A stretch of 64,000 nt of DNA from an uncultured Pseudomonadota bacterium (lineage in GTDB: Bacteria; Pseudomonadota; Gammaproteobacteria; CAJXQU01), in NCBI GenBank assembly GCA_913058255.1, contig CAJXQU010000010.1, forward strand, positions 1 through 64,000, given 5' to 3'. Positions 29,219 through 52,412 of the stretch are shown piece by piece (position 1 is the first letter of the stretch; each line of letters opens with the position of its first letter). The translations under genes and the position numbers were made by a program. The notes below the pieces were generated by a model that saw only the letters and a program-made list of their open reading frames with translations, was not told the DNA's origin and made no database searches.

Positions 29219-30130
29219 TTAGAAGTAACCCTCTTGTTTTTTCTTTTCCATCGAGCCAGAGCTATCGCTATCGATAACGCGACCTTGGCGTTCTGATGTT
29301 GTGGTTAGCAGCATTTCTTGAATGATCTCTGGTAATGTTGTTGCTTCTGACTCGACGGCCCCAGTTAATGGGTAGCAGCCTAGCGTTCTGAAACGCACCA
29401 TTTTCTCTTCAACTTTGACGCCATCTTCAATCGGCATGCGATCGTCATCGACCATGATCAAAACGCCATCACGTTCAACGACGGGGCGTTTTGCTGCGAA
29501 ATAAAGTGGAACCAATGGAATACTCTCCATGTGGATATATTGCCAGATATCTAATTCTGTCCAGTTAGACAAAGGGAAAACACGGATACTTTCACCTTTA
29601 TCGACCCTACCGTTATAAATGTTCCACAACTCTGGGCGTTGGTTTTTTGGATCCCAGCGATGATTTTTGTCACGGAAAGAATAAACACGTTCTTTCGCAC
29701 GAGATTTTTCTTCATCACGACGAGCACCGCCGAAGGCCGCATCGAAACCATGTTTATCCAGCGCCTGCTTCAAACCAGTCGTCTTCATAATGTCAGTATG
29801 TTTCGCACTTCCGTGTTTAAACGGACTGATCCCCATATCCACACCATCTTGGTTGATATGTACGATCAAATCCCAACCTAGCTTTTTGACATGCTTGTCG
29901 CGAAACTCGATCATTTCTTTGAATTTCCAAGTGGTGTCCACATGCATCAGAGGAAAAGGCGGTTTGCCAGGAGCAAACGCCTTGAGTGCGAGATGCATCA
30001 TCACGGCTGAATCTTTGCCGATAGAATAGAGCATGACAGGATTATCGAACTCCGCTGCCACCTCACGAATAATATGGATACTTTCCGCTTCTAACTGTTT
30101 TAGATGCGTCATTTTGTATTGATCTGACAT
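29219..30130 (-). CDS. cysD: Sulfate adenylyltransferase subunit 2
   Basis: [39 protein letters not shown]. Confidence 0.97.
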
Positions 30131-44267: not shown

Positions 44268-44813
44268 TATGGAGGCTATTGAGGTTGTTCGGTAGTCTTG
44301 TACATTAGGACAAATTTTGCTTGGTTTGTAACTTTTCAGCTTAAAAGTCTTCTGTTCTTCTAATGTTACAAGGATTTATGCTAACCCCTAACTGATTGGG
44401 ACTTAATCAAACTGTGACAAATGTCAACCAAGACATCTTAGAAAATATGGAATGAATATATCGCTAGCTAACTGACGTGTTTGCTTATATCTTCTTCAGG
44501 TATTCCATATTAAATACCTGTCGAGTTCAAAGTTATTTTTGAAGTTCGTTATTAGTTTGATATAGATAAACTATAAATATAAGTTTCAGACATAAAAAAA
44601 CACCCGAATGACTAAGGTTAAAAGTACCGTTTGTTATATCAGCCTGTATTTTTGTAAGAATATCTTCTGTTGTTCTGTATAGGCTAAACGAACTGGTGGT
44701 TATCATATTGTGAATATGATTGTGAAGTTAAGCTTTACGATCGGATGTTTCTTGACGAATTAGAAATTCCTGAATACCATTAAGTACCAATTATTGATAT
44801 CTTAGGTGGAGAT

Positions 44814-45053
44814 ATGTCTAAAAATACGAGTATGACTCTTGGAAAGCATTTCGATGGATTCATTGCGAACCAAGTTGAAGAAGGTCGATTTTCTTCAGCG
44901 AGTGAGGTTGTCCGTGCAGCCCTTCGCATGTTTGAAGACAATGAGCAAAAAATAGCGGCACTTAGACACCTGCTAGAAGAAGGTGAAAAGAGTGGTACAG
45001 CAGAATATAGCTATGAAAGTTTAATGAATGAACTTGATGATGAACTTGGTTAA
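44814..45053 (+). CDS. ParD-like type II antitoxin (RHH)
   Basis: SMTLGKHFDGFIANQVEEGRFSSASEVVRAALRMFEDNE. Confidence 0.9.
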   Translation: MSKNTSMTLGKHFDGFIANQVEEGRFSSASEVVRAALRMFEDNEQKIAALRHLLEEGEKSGTAEYSYESLMNELDDELG

Positions 45054-45355
45054 TGGGGAAGTTTACTTTAACGAATAAGGCTAAGTCTGATTTGAAATCT
45101 ATCGCAGCTTACACTCAAAGGAAGTGGGGGAAAGATCAACGTAGAGTATATGCTTTGCAGTTTGATGATGCATTTCATATGCTTTCAGATCAATCAAAAA
45201 TGGGTATTCAATGCGGTTATATCAAGGAAGGCTATCGAAAGTTTCCAATTAGCAGTCATATCGTTTTTTATCGAAATTTAAATCAAGAAAACATTGAGAT
45301 CGTTCGTATATTACATAAACGGATGGATGCTAAAGAACAATTGAAAAAAATATAG
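45053..45355 (+). CDS. ParE/RelE-superfamily toxin
   Basis: FTLTNKAKSDLKSIAAYTQRKWGKDQR...VRILHKRMD; TAATG overlap with antitoxin. Confidence 0.9.
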   Translation: MGKFTLTNKAKSDLKSIAAYTQRKWGKDQRRVYALQFDDAFHMLSDQSKMGIQCGYIKEGYRKFPISSHIVFYRNLNQENIEIVRILHKRMDAKEQLKKI

Positions 45356-45613: not shown

Positions 45614-45642
45614 ATTTGGTGGAGACGGCGGGAATCGAACCC
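45614..45642. repeat. Left att direct repeat (displaced ssrA 3' end)
   Basis: ATTTGGTGGAGACGGCGGGAATCGAACCC, identical to 52033-52061. Confidence 0.9.
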
Positions 45643-45660
45643 ACGCCCGTTTTATTAAAA

Positions 45661-46812
45661 TCAATCACTTGTGTCACCCTTGTGGCTGTCCTGTGCCCAA
45701 AGAGAACTGATTTTATTCTGGTTTGAGGTGTTTACATCAGGTAACCAGCGACCATATACCTTTCTGATCATGCCCCAATCTTTGTGTCCCATCTGGCTTG
45801 CAACCCACATAGGATCAGCACCAGCAGATAGAACCATTGACGCAAAAGTGTGGCGTGTACTGTATGGCTTTCTGTATTTTACACTAGCTTTCTTAAGCGC
45901 GGGAATCCATGCGGTTTTACGAAGTGGGCCATCATGCTTCCATGGTTGTTCCGTATCAGGATTTAGAAATATATGACCTTCGTTCTCGGTGTACTGAACT
46001 TGTTCTTTTAATGCATGCAGAGCAGGGGGTAATAATTCTAATTGTCTGATACTGGAGGTTGTCTTAGGGCGATCTTTTTCACCTGTTCTAGTTCTAACAT
46101 GTCGAATGAATGCAAATCCGTTTTCTAGATTTATGTCTTCCCATTGGAGAGCGATTAATTCTGATGTTCTTAAACCTGTCCAGAAAGCGAACTCGAAAAT
46201 ATTACGAACTTGACCTTCACAAGCATTAAGGATCGATTCTAGCTCTTCTCTTGTGAATGGCTCAGGTTCAGCTTGTCTTAGAGGAAGGTGCTTAATTCTA
46301 TCAAGTGGATTTTTATCAATTAACTCATCTTGGTAGGCTTCTGAAAATATAGCTCTAAGAGGAATTAGAACATTATTGATTCGCTTATTTGATATAAGTA
46401 AATCATCTTTCCAGTTGTGAATATCGGAAGTTGTTAGTTCTGATAGTCTCAATTCACCAAAGGCTGGTATCAGGTGAGAGTTGATAGCACTTTTATAATC
46501 CTTGTGGGTCGAGGCTTCGCAGTCTCTATACCTTCTATCTAACCAAGTAAGCAAAGATTCAGAAATAGTAATCCCTGAACCATCCCGAAACTTATTGGCT
46601 CGTGGATGATTAGGGAAGTGGTCGTGTAGGTTAAAAACACCACTTGCGATATCTCCCTGTATTCTCGTAAGAATATTTTCAGCTGTTTTATGGTGTGCTT
46701 TTTTACTAGCTGAGAGTGCAGGAATAGTAGCTCTGAACCTCTCATTGTTGTAATAGAAACCGACAATAAAACTATCTCCGCGAACTGTTAAGCTCCCTTT
46801 CCTAGTAGCCAT
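45661..46812 (-). CDS. Tyrosine-type site-specific integrase
   Basis: FWTGLRTSELIALQWEDI, YSTRHTFASMVLSAGADPMWVASQMGHKDWGMIRKVYGRW (R...H-R...Y). Confidence 0.95.
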   Translation of the reverse strand: MATRKGSLTVRGDSFIVGFYYNNERFRATIPALSASKKAHHKTAENILTRIQGDIASGVFNLHDHFPNHPRANKFRDGSGITISESLLTWLDRRYRDCEASTHKDYKSAINSHLIPAFGELRLSELTTSDIHNWKDDLLISNKRINNVLIPLRAIFSEAYQDELIDKNPLDRIKHLPLRQAEPEPFTREELESILNACEGQVRNIFEFAFWTGLRTSELIALQWEDINLENGFAFIRHVRTRTGEKDRPKTTSSIRQLELLPPALHALKEQVQYTENEGHIFLNPDTEQPWKHDGPLRKTAWIPALKKASVKYRKPYSTRHTFASMVLSAGADPMWVASQMGHKDWGMIRKVYGRWLPDVNTSNQNKISSLWAQDSHKGDTSD

Positions 46813-46976
46813 TGCTCAACCTCCTTTGGATTACAGAAGAGACGACCATTAGGAGCTTTTATCCAGTGTTTATCTTTTTGCCAAACTCCTTTTTTTAGGT
46901 TTGCTCGAATAGCATCTTCTGAGATTCCAGAAATTTCGGAGAATTTTTTAAGTGTTAGCCATTCCATAATAAGCAC
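46788..46976 (-). CDS. Excisionase/AlpA-like small HTH protein
   Basis: MEWLTLKKFSEISGISEDAIRANLKKGVWQKDKHWIKAPNGRLFCNPKEVEQWL. Confidence 0.75.
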   Translation of the reverse strand: MLIMEWLTLKKFSEISGISEDAIRANLKKGVWQKDKHWIKAPNGRLFCNPKEVEQWLLGKGA

Positions 46977-47014
46977 TCCCTGTGCATGTGGTGGTGAAGT
47001 TGAGAGTCTGTATC

Positions 47015-47431
47015 TTAATCATCCGTGTGCGGAATGTCAACTTCATCATCTGCGTCAGGTGTACGACCGGGAATTTTACCTGTAGCAACTTTCCAAAAAC
47101 CTCCAGCAGCATCAGCAATGCGTATACCTACAGACTTTTCTGCAAGAGGTCCACGGTCTGGGCAAATATTTTTAAATTTAACATCAAGGATTTTTTCGTA
47201 TTTGGAATATGCATTAGAACCATGAATAATTCGCAACACTTTCCAGCCGTAAAGCTGACCAACATACATTGCACCGATAGCTGTTTCTAGTGAAGGGAGC
47301 TGACCTTTAAAGTCGATCGAAGCTTTTTTTGCTATTTCCTCCAGCTCATTAGAAAAAGAGACTTTGTCCATATTTTCTTGTTGTAGAGTTTTACGGGCTT
47401 TTTTACGTTCTGCTTTGTTTTGTTTTGTCAT
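47015..47431 (-). CDS. Hypothetical protein of integrated element
   Basis: 138-aa ORF within the element, same strand as the integrase. Confidence 0.6.
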   Translation of the reverse strand: MTKQNKAERKKARKTLQQENMDKVSFSNELEEIAKKASIDFKGQLPSLETAIGAMYVGQLYGWKVLRIIHGSNAYSKYEKILDVKFKNICPDRGPLAEKSVGIRIADAAGGFWKVATGKIPGRTPDADDEVDIPHTDD

Positions 47432-47517
47432 GGCAGTTTTCTTATAGTGAATACTATATTCATCATACTAGACGTGAAGGCTTGTATAAACTTCCTTTAA
47501 TTCTGTCAGAACAATAG

Positions 47518-48822
47518 CTAAGCAGCTTTTGATTTTTTCTCTATTTTTGCAAGTAATTTATTCATTGCTGTAGCTATTTCTTGTACGACGGTAATACAAA
47601 CAGAGTTACCAAATTGTTTGTAAGATTGACCTTGAGAAACAGCATTAAGAATAAAACCTTCAGGAAATCCTTGTAATCTCGCGCATTCCCTTCTTGTAAG
47701 TTTTCTTGGATTTTTACCAAGTTCACTTTGGTCTATGAGAACTTCAGAACCGTCCTTGTAATATCGTGCACTAATAGTATTAGTATATTTGCTTTGTTTA
47801 GTGAAGAGTGAATATCCAAAACCGTTACCTTTTGCAATGTGCTCAGCTTTTCGTTTTTTATGACCAGCCCATAATTTATCAGAGATCGTGAATTTATCTT
47901 CTTCTGCTGTTAATGTAGATAAATCCTCAAGAATACTTCCTACTCTGGTCTCAATGCCTGTTGGAGTAGGCCATAGAAAGTGCTTTTCAATTTCAGCTTC
48001 TGAAAAATAGTCTTTATCGAAGCCAACTATGTAGATTCTTTCTCTATTTTGAGGCACGCCAAAATCAGAAGCTTTTAAGACTTTGAAATCAACCCAGTAG
48101 TTCAGTTTTACAGATAGAGCTTGTCTTGTTTCCTCACTAAGTAGAATATCCTTAGGTGGCTTTCCTTTAAACTCCCCCCTGAGTATTGATAGGATTGTTT
48201 CTAGAGTCCTACCTTTATCGTGCCCTCTTAATTGCTTAACATTTTCTAGAAGGAAAGCTTTTGGCCGTTTATTAGCAAGTATTCTTTGAATTTCAAAAAA
48301 CATAGTGCCTCTTGTGTCACTAAAACCTTTTTTTAAGCCTGCTTGCGAGAAGGCTTGGCATGGAAAACCTGCTAATAATAAATCATGATCTGGAATTTCA
48401 GCTGATGTGATAGGAACAATATCACCAGAAGGCATTTCACCGTAATTTGCCAGATAAGTTTTTTGTGAAAACTTATCCCACTCTGACGAAAAAACACACT
48501 GGCCACCTAACTTTTGGAAAGGTAGTCTAATTCCACCTATACCTGCAAATAAATCGATGAAATGAAAACATGGAGCTTGGTTATCAAACTTTAGTGGTGC
48601 AGATTGGTGTGCTTTTTTTAACTTACCTTCTAGTTCAAGAATATCATTGATTTTATTGAGTGTAGGTTTATGTTCTTCTGTTTCCCAACCTCTCACAGTC
48701 CTTTCTCCTTGTTTTCCAAGTCCAAGAAGGTTTGCAAATTCAGTTCTTCCAAGTCCAAGTTTCTCTCTAATATTCTTGACTTCGAGAGCACTCAGTTTAA
48801 CTGTGTTAGTATTTGTATGCAT
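47518..48822 (-). CDS. DNA (cytosine-5) methyltransferase with N-terminal HTH (Dcm/EcoRII/SsoII-like)
   Basis: HTH VKNIREKLGLGRTEFANLLGLGKQGERTVRGWE, then DLFAGIGGIRLPF, GFPCQAFSQAGLKKGF, ENVKQLRGHDKG, QNRERIYIVGF. ORF track start is 48861; Met MHTNTN at 48822 preferred. Confidence 0.93.
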   Translation of the reverse strand: MHTNTNTVKLSALEVKNIREKLGLGRTEFANLLGLGKQGERTVRGWETEEHKPTLNKINDILELEGKLKKAHQSAPLKFDNQAPCFHFIDLFAGIGGIRLPFQKLGGQCVFSSEWDKFSQKTYLANYGEMPSGDIVPITSAEIPDHDLLLAGFPCQAFSQAGLKKGFSDTRGTMFFEIQRILANKRPKAFLLENVKQLRGHDKGRTLETILSILRGEFKGKPPKDILLSEETRQALSVKLNYWVDFKVLKASDFGVPQNRERIYIVGFDKDYFSEAEIEKHFLWPTPTGIETRVGSILEDLSTLTAEEDKFTISDKLWAGHKKRKAEHIAKGNGFGYSLFTKQSKYTNTISARYYKDGSEVLIDQSELGKNPRKLTRRECARLQGFPEGFILNAVSQGQSYKQFGNSVCITVVQEIATAMNKLLAKIEKKSKAA

Positions 48823-48843
48823 TTTCAATGTATCCGGTTTTTG

Positions 48844-48855
48844 TCCTGGCCAGGA
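48844..48855. promoter_or_regulatory. Candidate R-M operator palindrome
   Basis: Perfect 12-bp palindrome TCCTGGCCAGGA between divergent MTase and candidate REase. Confidence 0.45.
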
Positions 48856-48898
48856 TAGCATTGTGTACTTACTTAGTCAAGAATGAGGAAGGGGAGTT

Positions 48899-49933
48899 TT
48901 GACAACAACGAATATTAAATATTTTAGTTTAAGTGATCTTAAGGCTATTCAGGTTAAAGTTCTTGATGAGAAGAAGCAGAGAGAGTCATTAGATAGCTTA
49001 ATGCTCATTTTTTTTGAGCCACTCCGTGGAGAGCTTTTAAGTAGATATAAAGATGAGAAAAAAGATATTCCTCATATAAATTTTGATGATCTCAAAGGTT
49101 ATGTGAGTCAGCTTTTGGGTGATATGAATGATGATCAAATAAATGATTTAAGGAAGTTAGGTGTAAGAGGAAAAAGTACTTCTAAACAAGAGTGGGATAA
49201 AGACCCCAGGCGCCGTGCAATGTTGACTTTTCTGAGTCATTACCCTCACTTTACTAATTCAATATCTAATATACACATACTTGCAGAGCTTTGTATTGAA
49301 ATTACTAGAATTCATTTTGAAAGTGAAATCAATACAGAAAATTTTGTTGATGCTAAAGCTTTTATAGATAAAATTAATTTACATAGGTGGAGGAGAGACA
49401 AAGATCAAAGTGAAAGGCAAAGCGGTGTGTCTATTTTGGGGTCAATCTCTGAACTTTTACTTGAAAATGCCTTGGAAAATTTAATAGATGACCAAAACTT
49501 TTTTAAGACTAACAATCAAAAGGTACAAAGTTATGGTGACTTTGTTCTTATGTGCTTGCCAAATAACCTTTGGCTTTCTGTAAAGTCTAACTTCGCAAGA
49601 GAAAGGCTACTAGCTTCTGGTTACACTACAGATATTCTAGGAGTGGGTTTTTTTACAGACAGTAGAGAATTCATAAGTTCAGCAAAAATAAGGAACTTTC
49701 AAAGGGTGGGGTTTTTAGGAATGTACTTACCTGACATACCGATAACAGAGGACCAAATTGAACTAAGTAAGAGCACATATGAGCAAGTAGTTGAATATTA
49801 CGGTAGCGTTGACGACTTACCGATTAATATTAATGGTACAACTTTTTTACGCCCTTTAAGTAGCTTACACTCCGATTTAACTAAAATACTCGATAGCAAG
49901 GATATTTCAAAAAGAACAACGTTAGGCTATTAG
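48899..49933 (+). CDS. Candidate type II restriction endonuclease partner of the MTase
   Basis: Divergent neighbour of the C5 MTase; possible PD-(D/E)xK-like segment SYGDFVLMCLPNNLWLSVKSNF; TTG start. Confidence 0.55.
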   Translation: MTTTNIKYFSLSDLKAIQVKVLDEKKQRESLDSLMLIFFEPLRGELLSRYKDEKKDIPHINFDDLKGYVSQLLGDMNDDQINDLRKLGVRGKSTSKQEWDKDPRRRAMLTFLSHYPHFTNSISNIHILAELCIEITRIHFESEINTENFVDAKAFIDKINLHRWRRDKDQSERQSGVSILGSISELLLENALENLIDDQNFFKTNNQKVQSYGDFVLMCLPNNLWLSVKSNFARERLLASGYTTDILGVGFFTDSREFISSAKIRNFQRVGFLGMYLPDIPITEDQIELSKSTYEQVVEYYGSVDDLPININGTTFLRPLSSLHSDLTKILDSKDISKRTTLGY

Positions 49934-49967
49934 TGTGGATAGCGAGTCTCATACAAACCACGTACAG

Positions 49968-51641
49968 TTATTGACAGAACTCCAAGTAACTCAAACCAGC
50001 ACACCCCCCAGCCTGCGGCTTTGGGGGTGTGTGCTCTGGTATAATTGGGGACGTTTTAATTTTCCATTCGTGAATTCTCGTTGTAACAGTATTTGTTCCA
50101 TCAGTGATACCTACGACTTGATAGCCGAGAGGTTCACCATATTTACCTAGTTTGTCACTCCACACTTTTTCAAGTTTTATTGGAATATCTTTCACCTTAA
50201 TATTACAGCCACCTAACAATTCAACGTATGTTTGCCAGTCTCCTTGGTCAGCAGCTTCGAAAGCTTCTTTTAAAACACCTTCGGGTACGTTTTTACAACG
50301 CCTTAACTCTCTCCAAACGCTAACAGGTGGCCCGCCGAATTGTTGGAACTGGCGTATTCCCCATGTAGAAGCCCATGCTCTAACACGTAGAGCTGAATCA
50401 GCAGCATCATTTCCATAGAGGTCTTGATCTAAATGGGCACCGTCAATATTTTTGGCTATATATTTAGCTATATATCCTGTCGCGGAGCCTCTACTCCAAT
50501 CAATAGCAACAGATGTGAACCGATGTTTGTCTGCTCCTTTTTCATCTGGTGAATCTTTCAATGCATAATTCCTAAAGATATCTTCAACTGTTGTTTGGAA
50601 TTGCTTCTCAGTGAAGAACATAAAATGCCAGTGAGGTGTTGCATCGTGTTGAGGTTCGACTACACGGAGGCCATAAAACGTAATACCATCTCTCCCAAAT
50701 TTAGAACGCATGTTTTTCCAAATATTGTTGAAATAATCGTTTGCTTCTCTAGGTGAGGTTTCATCGTAATTTGGATTAGCATGACCTGTAGAGCTATAGC
50801 GCGGATGCATTCTAGAAGGACAGGTTAAGGTTAAAAACAAAGCAATATGATTAGCCTTTTTAGCAAATTCCTCAAAGCCGGCACATCTGCACATGAGTTC
50901 ATTTCTTCTGTTTCTAGGGTTAGCTACAGATGTTTCCATGAGTTGCTGTAAGGTAAATTCATCACCTTCTTCATTCTCAAGAACGACTTGTTCCATGAAC
51001 TCCTTATTACTTTGTTGTTGCACTAGATAGCATTGTAAAGTTTGAGGACTGACATATAAGCTTGCATGTCTATGGACTGAGCCTAGTTTAATGGCGAATA
51101 GCTCTAGTTTTCTTTTATGAATTTTTCTTAACTCTTTCCGCCACCATTGTTCATCTAATAAACGAAGAATAGCTGATTGATAATTTCCACCTTTTACTTT
51201 TGGCGCCTGAACCAGAAAACGGTCAGCATAGAAAGCTAGAGATTTGTAAAGGCTCTTAATATCATTTTGGTATTTTTGAGGAAGTTGAGTCAGTCGAAAA
51301 CAAGCATCAACCCGTTTTTTTGCATCTTCCTTGAGTGAGCTATTACTTGCACCGAGGTTGAGCGAACCTTCATTGAATGATCCTGGATTTATACCTTCAT
51401 CAACTTCTAAAAGAAATAGGTTGGCATCTCGTTCTCCTTTGTTGAGATACAAGTCACGGTAAATATTTGCTAGTGACTTAGAAAAAAGGTTAGGTGTTTT
51501 TGAAAATATCGCACGCCTGAATTTTCTATTTGCCCCATCCCCATCATCGAGATCCCATGTTATTTTCTCAGCTAATGGTAAATAAGGTGGAATTGAGACG
51601 GATCTATGTCTTTGATGAGTATTCATACGAACTCCTTGCAT
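49968..51641 (-). CDS. P2 gpA-like replication endonuclease (HUH Rep)
   Basis: HUH motif TPHWHFMFF, paired tyrosines YIAKYIAKN, LTLTCPSRMHPRY. Confidence 0.9.
   Translation of the reverse strand: MQGVRMNTHQRHRSVSIPPYLPLAEKITWDLDDGDGANRKFRRAIFSKTPNLFSKSLANIYRDLYLNKGERDANLFLLEVDEGINPGSFNEGSLNLGASNSSLKEDAKKRVDACFRLTQLPQKYQNDIKSLYKSLAFYADRFLVQAPKVKGGNYQSAILRLLDEQWWRKELRKIHKRKLELFAIKLGSVHRHASLYVSPQTLQCYLVQQQSNKEFMEQVVLENEEGDEFTLQQLMETSVANPRNRRNELMCRCAGFEEFAKKANHIALFLTLTCPSRMHPRYSSTGHANPNYDETSPREANDYFNNIWKNMRSKFGRDGITFYGLRVVEPQHDATPHWHFMFFTEKQFQTTVEDIFRNYALKDSPDEKGADKHRFTSVAIDWSRGSATGYIAKYIAKNIDGAHLDQDLYGNDAADSALRVRAWASTWGIRQFQQFGGPPVSVWRELRRCKNVPEGVLKEAFEAADQGDWQTYVELLGGCNIKVKDIPIKLEKVWSDKLGKYGEPLGYQVVGITDGTNTVTTRIHEWKIKTSPIIPEHTPPKPQAGGCAGLSYLEFCQ
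49995..50040. repeat. Large GC-rich inverted repeat at 3' end of rep gene
   Basis: ACCAG-c-ACACCCCC-c-AGCC-TGC-GGCT-tt-GGGGGTGT-gtgct-CTGGT. Confidence 0.7.
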
Positions 51642-51910
51642 GTTTGAATTAGAGTGTTTGAGAGGCTTGGAAAACTAAATCTTAGATATCTGGGTTTACC
51701 GTTCGAATTAGAACAGAGGACTTCGATAAGTATCTGTTGCTCACTACGGCTAATGAATTTCTGGGATTCTTTCGAATATGGATAGCCATCACTTAAATAG
51801 GCTTCGATAAGGTTAGGAGTTGTCCAGCATAGAAAGATTATCAATGCTGAATACTTCAGAGTTATTTTTTGCGAGTGACCGCTCTGTGTTTGTGACCATG
51901 GTGTGACCAA
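51623..51910 (-). CDS. Hypothetical protein upstream of rep
   Basis: 95-aa ORF overlapping the rep start by 19 nt. Confidence 0.35.
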   Translation of the reverse strand: MVTPWSQTQSGHSQKITLKYSALIIFLCWTTPNLIEAYLSDGYPYSKESQKFISRSEQQILIEVLCSNSNGKPRYLRFSFPSLSNTLIQTCKEFV

Positions 51911-51991
51911 ACTGTGTCCAAACAGAGGACTATTTAGATCAACATGGACTAATGGGAATAATGCTTGATTGGTTGAAAAGTGTTTAAAATA

Positions 51992-52012
51992 CAGGGGCTT
52001 GAGCAGCCCCTG
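51992..52012 (-). terminator. Intrinsic terminator now downstream of ssrA (inside the element)
   Basis: CAGGGGCT-GCTCA-AGCCCCTG-TATTTT on the minus strand. Confidence 0.65.
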
Positions 52013-52032
52013 TTGGTCTCGGTGTACCTTGA

Positions 52033-52061
52033 ATTTGGTGGAGACGGCGGGAATCGAACCC
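52033..52061. repeat. Right att direct repeat (in ssrA 3' end)
   Basis: Identical 29 bp to 45614-45642. Confidence 0.9.
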
Positions 52062-52412
52062 GCGTCCGCAAATCCTCTGCCTTTGGTTCTACATGCTTAG
52101 CCGACTCTTTTAATTTAACTGGCCACTACCCGAACGGCAGGATGCGTGTACAGCGGTTCCGGTAAAAGTTTAGAGAATCCACGCCGGACGCATTTCATCA
52201 CGATCTTATGAGAGTCGACGCCTGAGTGTTCCGAAGAACCTGGACGCATAAGCACGGCTCCAGTCAGACGGCAATAAACCGGTTCTTAAGCGGCTAGTGC
52301 GTAGTTGTCGTCGTTGGCAACTAAAAGTTTTGCATATTGGATTTACGAGGCTATGTGCATCCTCGGCATGCCCCTCAGGTTTTGTAACCCGCGTCGAAGC
52401 CAGGTCGTCCCC
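52036..52412 (-). ncRNA. ssrA: tmRNA (10Sa RNA); tag ANDDNYALAA
   Basis: 5' GGGGACGACCTGGCTTCGACGCGGGTT..., tag ORF GCCAACGACGACAACTACGCACTAGCCGCTTAA, 3' GCGGACGCGGGTTCGATTCCCGCCGTCTCCACCA. Confidence 0.97.

Follow-up and report, generated by a model that had tools for sequence, protein, structure and literature searches.

The window analysed here is a stretch of 64,000 nucleotides (positions 1 to 64,000 of contig CAJXQU010000010.1, assembly GCA_913058255.1) from an uncultured gammaproteobacterium of the Pseudomonadota lineage CAJXQU01, and it contains a discrete element at the 3' end of ssrA, the gene of the transfer-messenger RNA (tmRNA). This element is probably a minimal integrative and rolling-circle-replicating "hitcher", which is built from interchangeable modules and depends for its transfer on a helper, most likely a phage. 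An initial annotation of the window had proposed an ssrA-integrated element with an integrase, an AlpA-like protein, a rolling-circle Rep and defence-like cargo, and this proposal was supported by the comparisons below, including that with a same-genus genome in which the ssrA site is empty; the phage-satellite-like nature that it also suggested is hypothetical.

The element is delimited by two direct repeats of 36 nt, which are identical at 34 positions. The perfect 29-bp repeats described in the initial annotation are the leading, exact part of these repeats (45614-45642 and 52033-52061), and the right copy forms the 3' terminus of a tmRNA gene that is itself intact; the repeats bound about 6.4 kb, as stated in the initial annotation. 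In the same-genus genome G002, the tmRNA gene is directly followed by a protease gene, and the site is unoccupied; the contig of the other same-genus genome, G001, stops inside the tmRNA gene and is uninformative on site occupancy. The element is more AT-rich than the remainder of the window, with a GC content of 38.3% versus 42.6%.

Starting from ssrA, the genes on the minus strand are arranged in the order rep, methyltransferase gene, orf138, AlpA-type gene and int, and a gene for a 344-aa protein lies upstream of the methyltransferase gene in divergent orientation (Table 1). The core genes are all intact open reading frames (ORFs). The integrase, AlpA-like and gpA-type HUH Rep assignments made initially were confirmed by family scans and by catalytic motifs: Rep contains H337-x-H339 (HWH) and Y390-x3-Y394 (YIAKY), and residues R215, R320, H343 and Y353 of the integrase are intact. 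Based on its family matches, the AlpA/Cox-type protein is likely an excisionase. Capsid, portal, terminase, tail, lysis and conjugation families gave zero matches to the element ORFs in Pfam and PHROG scans, in line with the earlier statement that no capsid, portal, terminase or conjugation genes are evident, and the structural proteins of HP1 and ESSI-2, used as queries, found no match in the window. Satellite primase/helicase genes of the P4 or PICI type, capsid-redirecting genes and terminase genes were likewise not found in the element ORFs by these scans, and no relaxase, coupling or mob gene was recognized among them in general family scans, which did not include an oriT search. The structure of the orf138 product was modelled by AlphaFold2 as helical with low confidence (predicted local distance difference test, pLDDT, 59).

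Table 1. Features of the ssrA-associated element and its immediate surroundings (positions in the window).
Feature	Position	Strand	Evidence or remark
Integrase remnant, 60 nt	44615..44674	-	78% to 46628-46687 of int; outside attR
ParDE toxin-antitoxin pair, intact, just beyond attR	44814..45355	+	PF03693, PF05016
attR, displaced repeat copy, 12 nt past the int stop codon	45614..45649	.	34/36 identity, 29 exact
int, tyrosine integrase with Arm-DNA-bind_2 domain	45661..46812	-	PF00589, PF14659, PF12167
AlpA/Cox-type small DNA-binding protein	46788..46976	-	PHROG 9668/539 excisionase matches, best E 4e-7; adjoins int across the family
orf138, conserved 138-aa protein, recurrent in Rep-Int elements	47015..47431	-	Comparison of loci
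C5-cytosine DNA methyltransferase	47518..48861	-	PF00145 9e-95; weak N-terminal matches to helix-turn-helix regulators
Orphan protein of 344 aa, encoded divergently to the methyltransferase; restriction endonuclease candidate	48899..49933	+	Position only
Putative nick site of the double-strand origin, CTTGGAGTTCTGTCAATAACTGTACG, which overlaps the stop codon of rep	49961..49986	-	Single occurrence in the window, 0 expected by chance
rep, P2 gpA-type HUH initiator, 557 aa	49968..51641	-	PF05840 E=7e-87; PHROG 91 "nicking at origin of replication" 3e-163
Hairpin AGCACACACCCC / GGGGGGTGTGCT, just upstream of the nick site	49998..50035	-	DNA fold z -3.8; 0/200 shuffles fold as well
attL, repeat copy at the ssrA 3' end	52033..52068	.	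Repeat comparison and tmRNA 3' end
ssrA (tmRNA), insertion target, intact	52036..52412	-	ARAGORN; tag ANDDNYALAA

A putative origin of the phage P2 type was recognized at the 3' end of rep. In the rep genes of Nitrosomonas, third-base conservation is 0.87-0.91 over approximately the last 55 codons compared with a mean of 0.55, and this region was therefore inspected, which yielded the candidate nick site CTTGGAGTTCTGTCAATAACTGTACG. The window sequence CTTGGAGTTCTGTCAATAACTGT, located 3' of the hairpin, shares 21 of 23 bases with the nick site of P2, which is annotated at 29892 of the P2 record within CTCGGAGTCCTGTCAATAACTGT, and the site is nearly identical to those of both P2 and ESSI-2. With up to three mismatches allowed, 76 of 81 rep genes have the motif close to their 3' end and in the orientation of rep, and only four matches lie elsewhere in 1.43 Mb; the five genes without it include one with four mismatches, two at contig ends and a rep-orf138 fusion that lost the region. 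The search for hairpins over the rep 3' ends was suggestive in some members only, and the robust signal is the nick motif rather than the hairpin. From these features, the element carries an initiator together with an origin, and by analogy with P2 the Rep presumably acts on this site. The intact P2-type nick site strengthens the initial reading of an integrative replicating element.

The surroundings of attR point to a longer history of the locus. The integrase remnant and the ParDE pair outside attR (44533-45355) suggest an earlier insertion at the same site. These remnants, together with the presence of a single copy, could also indicate an immobile relic, that is, an old insertion retained for the methyltransferase cassette alone, and this explanation is considered improbable in view of the intact core genes, the conserved att core and the intact origin.

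The Rep sequence was used as a query against 85,462 species genomes, and 80 loci were obtained. About 25 loci, the window included, have the core order Rep, AlpA and Int with the same type of integrase, optionally with a small protein and orf138 between Rep and AlpA. They are distributed in Gamma- and Betaproteobacteria, including Nitrosomonas, Motiliproteus, Marinobacterium, Thiothrix, Thiolinea, Methylococcus, Catenovulum, Rheinheimera and others. Many of them lie directly at ssrA (tmRNA genes identified by ARAGORN), and one Nitrosomonas copy lies at tRNA-Ser; the search for the same architecture at ssrA in related genomes, suggested in the initial annotation, thus recovered it in other genera. 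Where both ends were mapped from the repeats, the elements are 4.0-8.5 kb long, and in Thiothrix (L041) the repeats are 3985 bp apart and enclose five genes only. A distribution of the genes independent of the att sites had been named initially as evidence against a discrete element: modules do swap among elements, but the genes were always found within one repeat-bounded element where both ends were mapped. The data set contains one genome per species and many metagenome-assembled genomes, which limits population-level tests, and the genes of the relatives are simple ORF calls.

The recurrence of this core bears on the possibility of a degraded P2-like prophage, in which int, cox and rep would be what remained after loss of the structural genes; the Int, the Cox-like protein and gpA are indeed all P2-type functions. 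P2-type structural genes occur in the fetched flanks of only about 9 of the 80 loci, and some of these are weak single-gene matches, including one in L034. The compact core is repeated with the same gene order in the approximately 25 loci, usually with an intact origin and with turnover of the cargo; orf138 has no match in 50,697 phage records; and the Reps of the ssrA family do not group with phage gpA proteins in the Rep tree. The prophage explanation was rejected on the recurrence of the compact conserved core, and its probability is regarded as very low.

Several further observations were made on the family. In Marinobacterium ramblicola (L050), four ssrA-type att copies at 327, 9831, 15155 and 19177 would fit elements arrayed in tandem at a single ssrA. 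A conserved inverted repeat, CTAAGACCC...GGGTCTTAG, with AGACC repeats is present between ssrA and rep in L024, L029, L035, L037, L040 and other family loci, and possibly represents integrase arm sites or an operator. The integrase alone was dropped as a definition of the family, most integrase-anchored matches being other islands, and orf138 was dropped as a marker of mobile elements only, two genomes having an orf138-like gene without visible integrase or Rep. These two orf138-like genes, in L132 (8103-8483) and L135 (7943-8335), stand beside TonB-receptor-like ORFs, with no integrase or Rep found nearby.

Comparison of the loci indicated that replication modules are exchangeable within this style of element, because different Reps are combined with related integration genes. 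The Rep of the window lies outside the 21-row ssrA clade and groups with those of L002 and L003 (97 SH-aLRT, quick method), which are located at tRNA-Leu and encode a SIR2/TPR cargo protein and an integrase different from that of the window element. In another genome, the element L111 at ssrA has 26-nt repeats and encodes orf138, a protein matching AlpA and an integrase 63% identical to that of the window; its Rep, however, is of the gpII type (PF05144). The genome of the window itself contains a second element at tRNA-Arg (L109, G000:C23, 6414-10555), with 41-nt repeats 4.1 kb apart, an integrase, a DUF4224 protein, a Rep_trans initiator (PF02486) and an orf138 product 46% identical to that of the window. 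In other genomes, orf138 is paired with REP_ORF2-G2P or gpA Reps in elements at tRNA-Lys, tRNA-Leu and tRNA-Met. A second architecture, consisting of Int, gpA-type Rep and cargo, was observed in L002, L003, L013 and L016, where it is bounded by tRNA-Leu or tRNA-Ala and a 49-56-nt repeat; these mini-elements measure 6.8-9.7 kb where measured, contain the P2-type origin and lack P2 structural genes.

These results also bear on the proposal of a satellite of P2-like phages specifically, in which helper gpA and satellite Rep would cross-fire the shared nick site and the DNA would be packaged in helper capsids. The relationship between P2 and P4 is a known precedent for a satellite and its helper, and the nick site almost the same as in P2 and ESSI-2 and the homology of Rep to Peduoviridae gpA are both in favor of this proposal. 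However, a P2-type capsid gene is absent from the host genome, the Rep is not nested within the phage clade, and the relatives with gpII, Rep_trans or other Reps argue against reliance on one phage family, so that such a specific dependence is judged rather unlikely.

Most relatives encode a 90-aa protein, c3, between Rep and orf138; the window element lacks it and has the methyltransferase pair in its place. Most family loci have one variable cargo slot, often occupied by a defence system and in relatives usually situated between Int and attR; the occupants include a retron type IX reverse transcriptase, fused AriAB (PARIS), Roc-COR-TIR, a GmrSD/HEC-06-type protein, an AAA ATPase with RloB, AbiH, AbiJ, HigB and ParDE. 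Large cargo proteins without Pfam match, encoded in L006 (14853-16331), L035 (14474-16042), L030 (14662-15972) and L033 (17231-18133), are candidates for unknown defence systems. In the window, the methyltransferase and the 344-aa protein form a probable anti-phage restriction cassette. The methyltransferase is 63-67% identical to plasmid methyltransferases, and of the four most similar enzymes, two have an annotated restriction endonuclease of the LlaMI family as neighbour. Of the restriction-modification-like pair in the initial annotation, the C5 methyltransferase was upheld, but the second half gave no match to any family, PDB, plasmid or phage entry and none in 369 genomes. Because the 344-aa protein has no detectable homologue, its restriction activity is proposed from gene position only; a single-sequence AlphaFold2 model of this protein had a pLDDT of 32, too low for use.

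Based on these features, a life cycle can be proposed for the hitcher. The integrase would recombine attP with the ssrA 3' end, leaving the tmRNA intact, and the AlpA-type protein would probably assist as excisionase. After excision, the gpA-type Rep would nick the P2-type origin at the rep end and start rolling-circle replication, and the amplified DNA would leave the cell by means of a helper. Helper dependence is proposed because no capsid, terminase, relaxase or conjugation genes are present. The comparison of loci suggests that the element travels as modules: one for integration (orf138-AlpA-Int), an exchangeable one for replication, and a slot for cargo, which is often an anti-phage system and here the C5 methyltransferase with the nuclease presumed to be its partner. 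Protection of the host by such cargo would maintain the element in the population. Alternatively, the element could be an integrative mobilizable element moved by a resident conjugative system, with the HUH Rep doubling as relaxase. Relaxases have relatives among the rolling-circle replication proteins, as reported for MOBT relaxases and Rep_trans proteins (PMC11389934), an HUH Rep could in principle stand in for a relaxase and the element size is compatible; the absence of recognized coupling or mob genes in the family scans and the gpA-type Rep with its phage-type origin make this route improbable as well. Packaging by a phage is the favored route, because no mobilization genes were seen in the element or its relatives, and because there are precedents: a jumbo phage transfers related tmRNA islands (PMC12595487), and virulent phages transfer PICMI (PMC10803314).

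Some points weigh against the interpretation as a helper-dependent hitcher. Transfer is deduced from patchy distribution only, and the host genome contains no P2-type capsid gene (PF05125). Sampling of the relatives by Rep is biased to gpA-type elements, a survey anchored on the integrase encountered it on other islands too, and the presumed nuclease is an orphan.

The general kind of element is already known, both as integrase-AlpA tmRNA islands with defence cargo and as minimalist satellites. No description of an element that unites these genes, a gpA-type Rep and a P2-type origin was found in the open-licence full-text literature, and an earlier account may exist elsewhere. A broader view, which we put forward tentatively and with some doubt, is that such elements constitute an undescribed and widespread class of integrative replicons of about 4-10 kb, in which an integration module is joined to an HUH Rep, which can be swapped among the P2 gpA, filamentous gpII, Rep_trans and G2P types, and to the origin of that Rep, often with orf138; these would spread single anti-phage systems among Proteobacteria and parasitize phages via the shared origin. 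If the interpretation is true, a unit of five genes and an origin, within 4 kb in the most reduced relative, would be about as small as a carrier of anti-phage defence can plausibly be. Non-phage chromosomal islands would then circulate an initiator of phage replication along with the site that it nicks, so that the island could be amplified by a helper phage or could compete with it. The origin motif together with integrase and AlpA would provide a searchable signature for new defence systems in the cargo slot.

Among known systems, the actinomycete integrative elements of the pSAM2 type have an int-xis-rep layout, a rolling-circle Rep, a tRNA-type site and an FtsK-like transfer gene, Tra. 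The window element is similar in layout, whereas it has no Tra gene and its Rep belongs to a different family. With Peduoviridae (P2, HP1, ESSI-2) it shares the gpA-type Rep and an almost identical nick site, and it differs from them in gene order and in having no structural, lysis or packaging genes. P4-like satellites are also small carriers of defence genes (PMC9122126), but the window element is devoid of P4-type primase and capsid-size genes and is predicted to replicate by its own gpA-type Rep. PICMI of Vibrionaceae (PMC10803314) resembles it in the very small size, in the set of int, alpA and one replication gene, and in the lack of capsid-remodelling genes; PICMI encodes a DUF3987/DUF5906 primase and is inserted at fis, whereas the window element is inserted at ssrA with an HUH Rep and has no such primase family in any ORF. 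The tmRNA islands I23, I44 and I55 of Pseudomonas SBW25 (PMC12595487) are alike in the ssrA 3' site, direct repeats, tyrosine integrase, AlpA, defence cargo and lack of transfer genes, and many islands of this type encode inovirus Gp2-like proteins (PMC12595487). These islands range from about 20 to more than 70 kb and contain RadC and YqaJ, whereas the window element, at 6.4 kb and without RadC or YqaJ, combines a gpA-type Rep with a P2-type origin and orf138.

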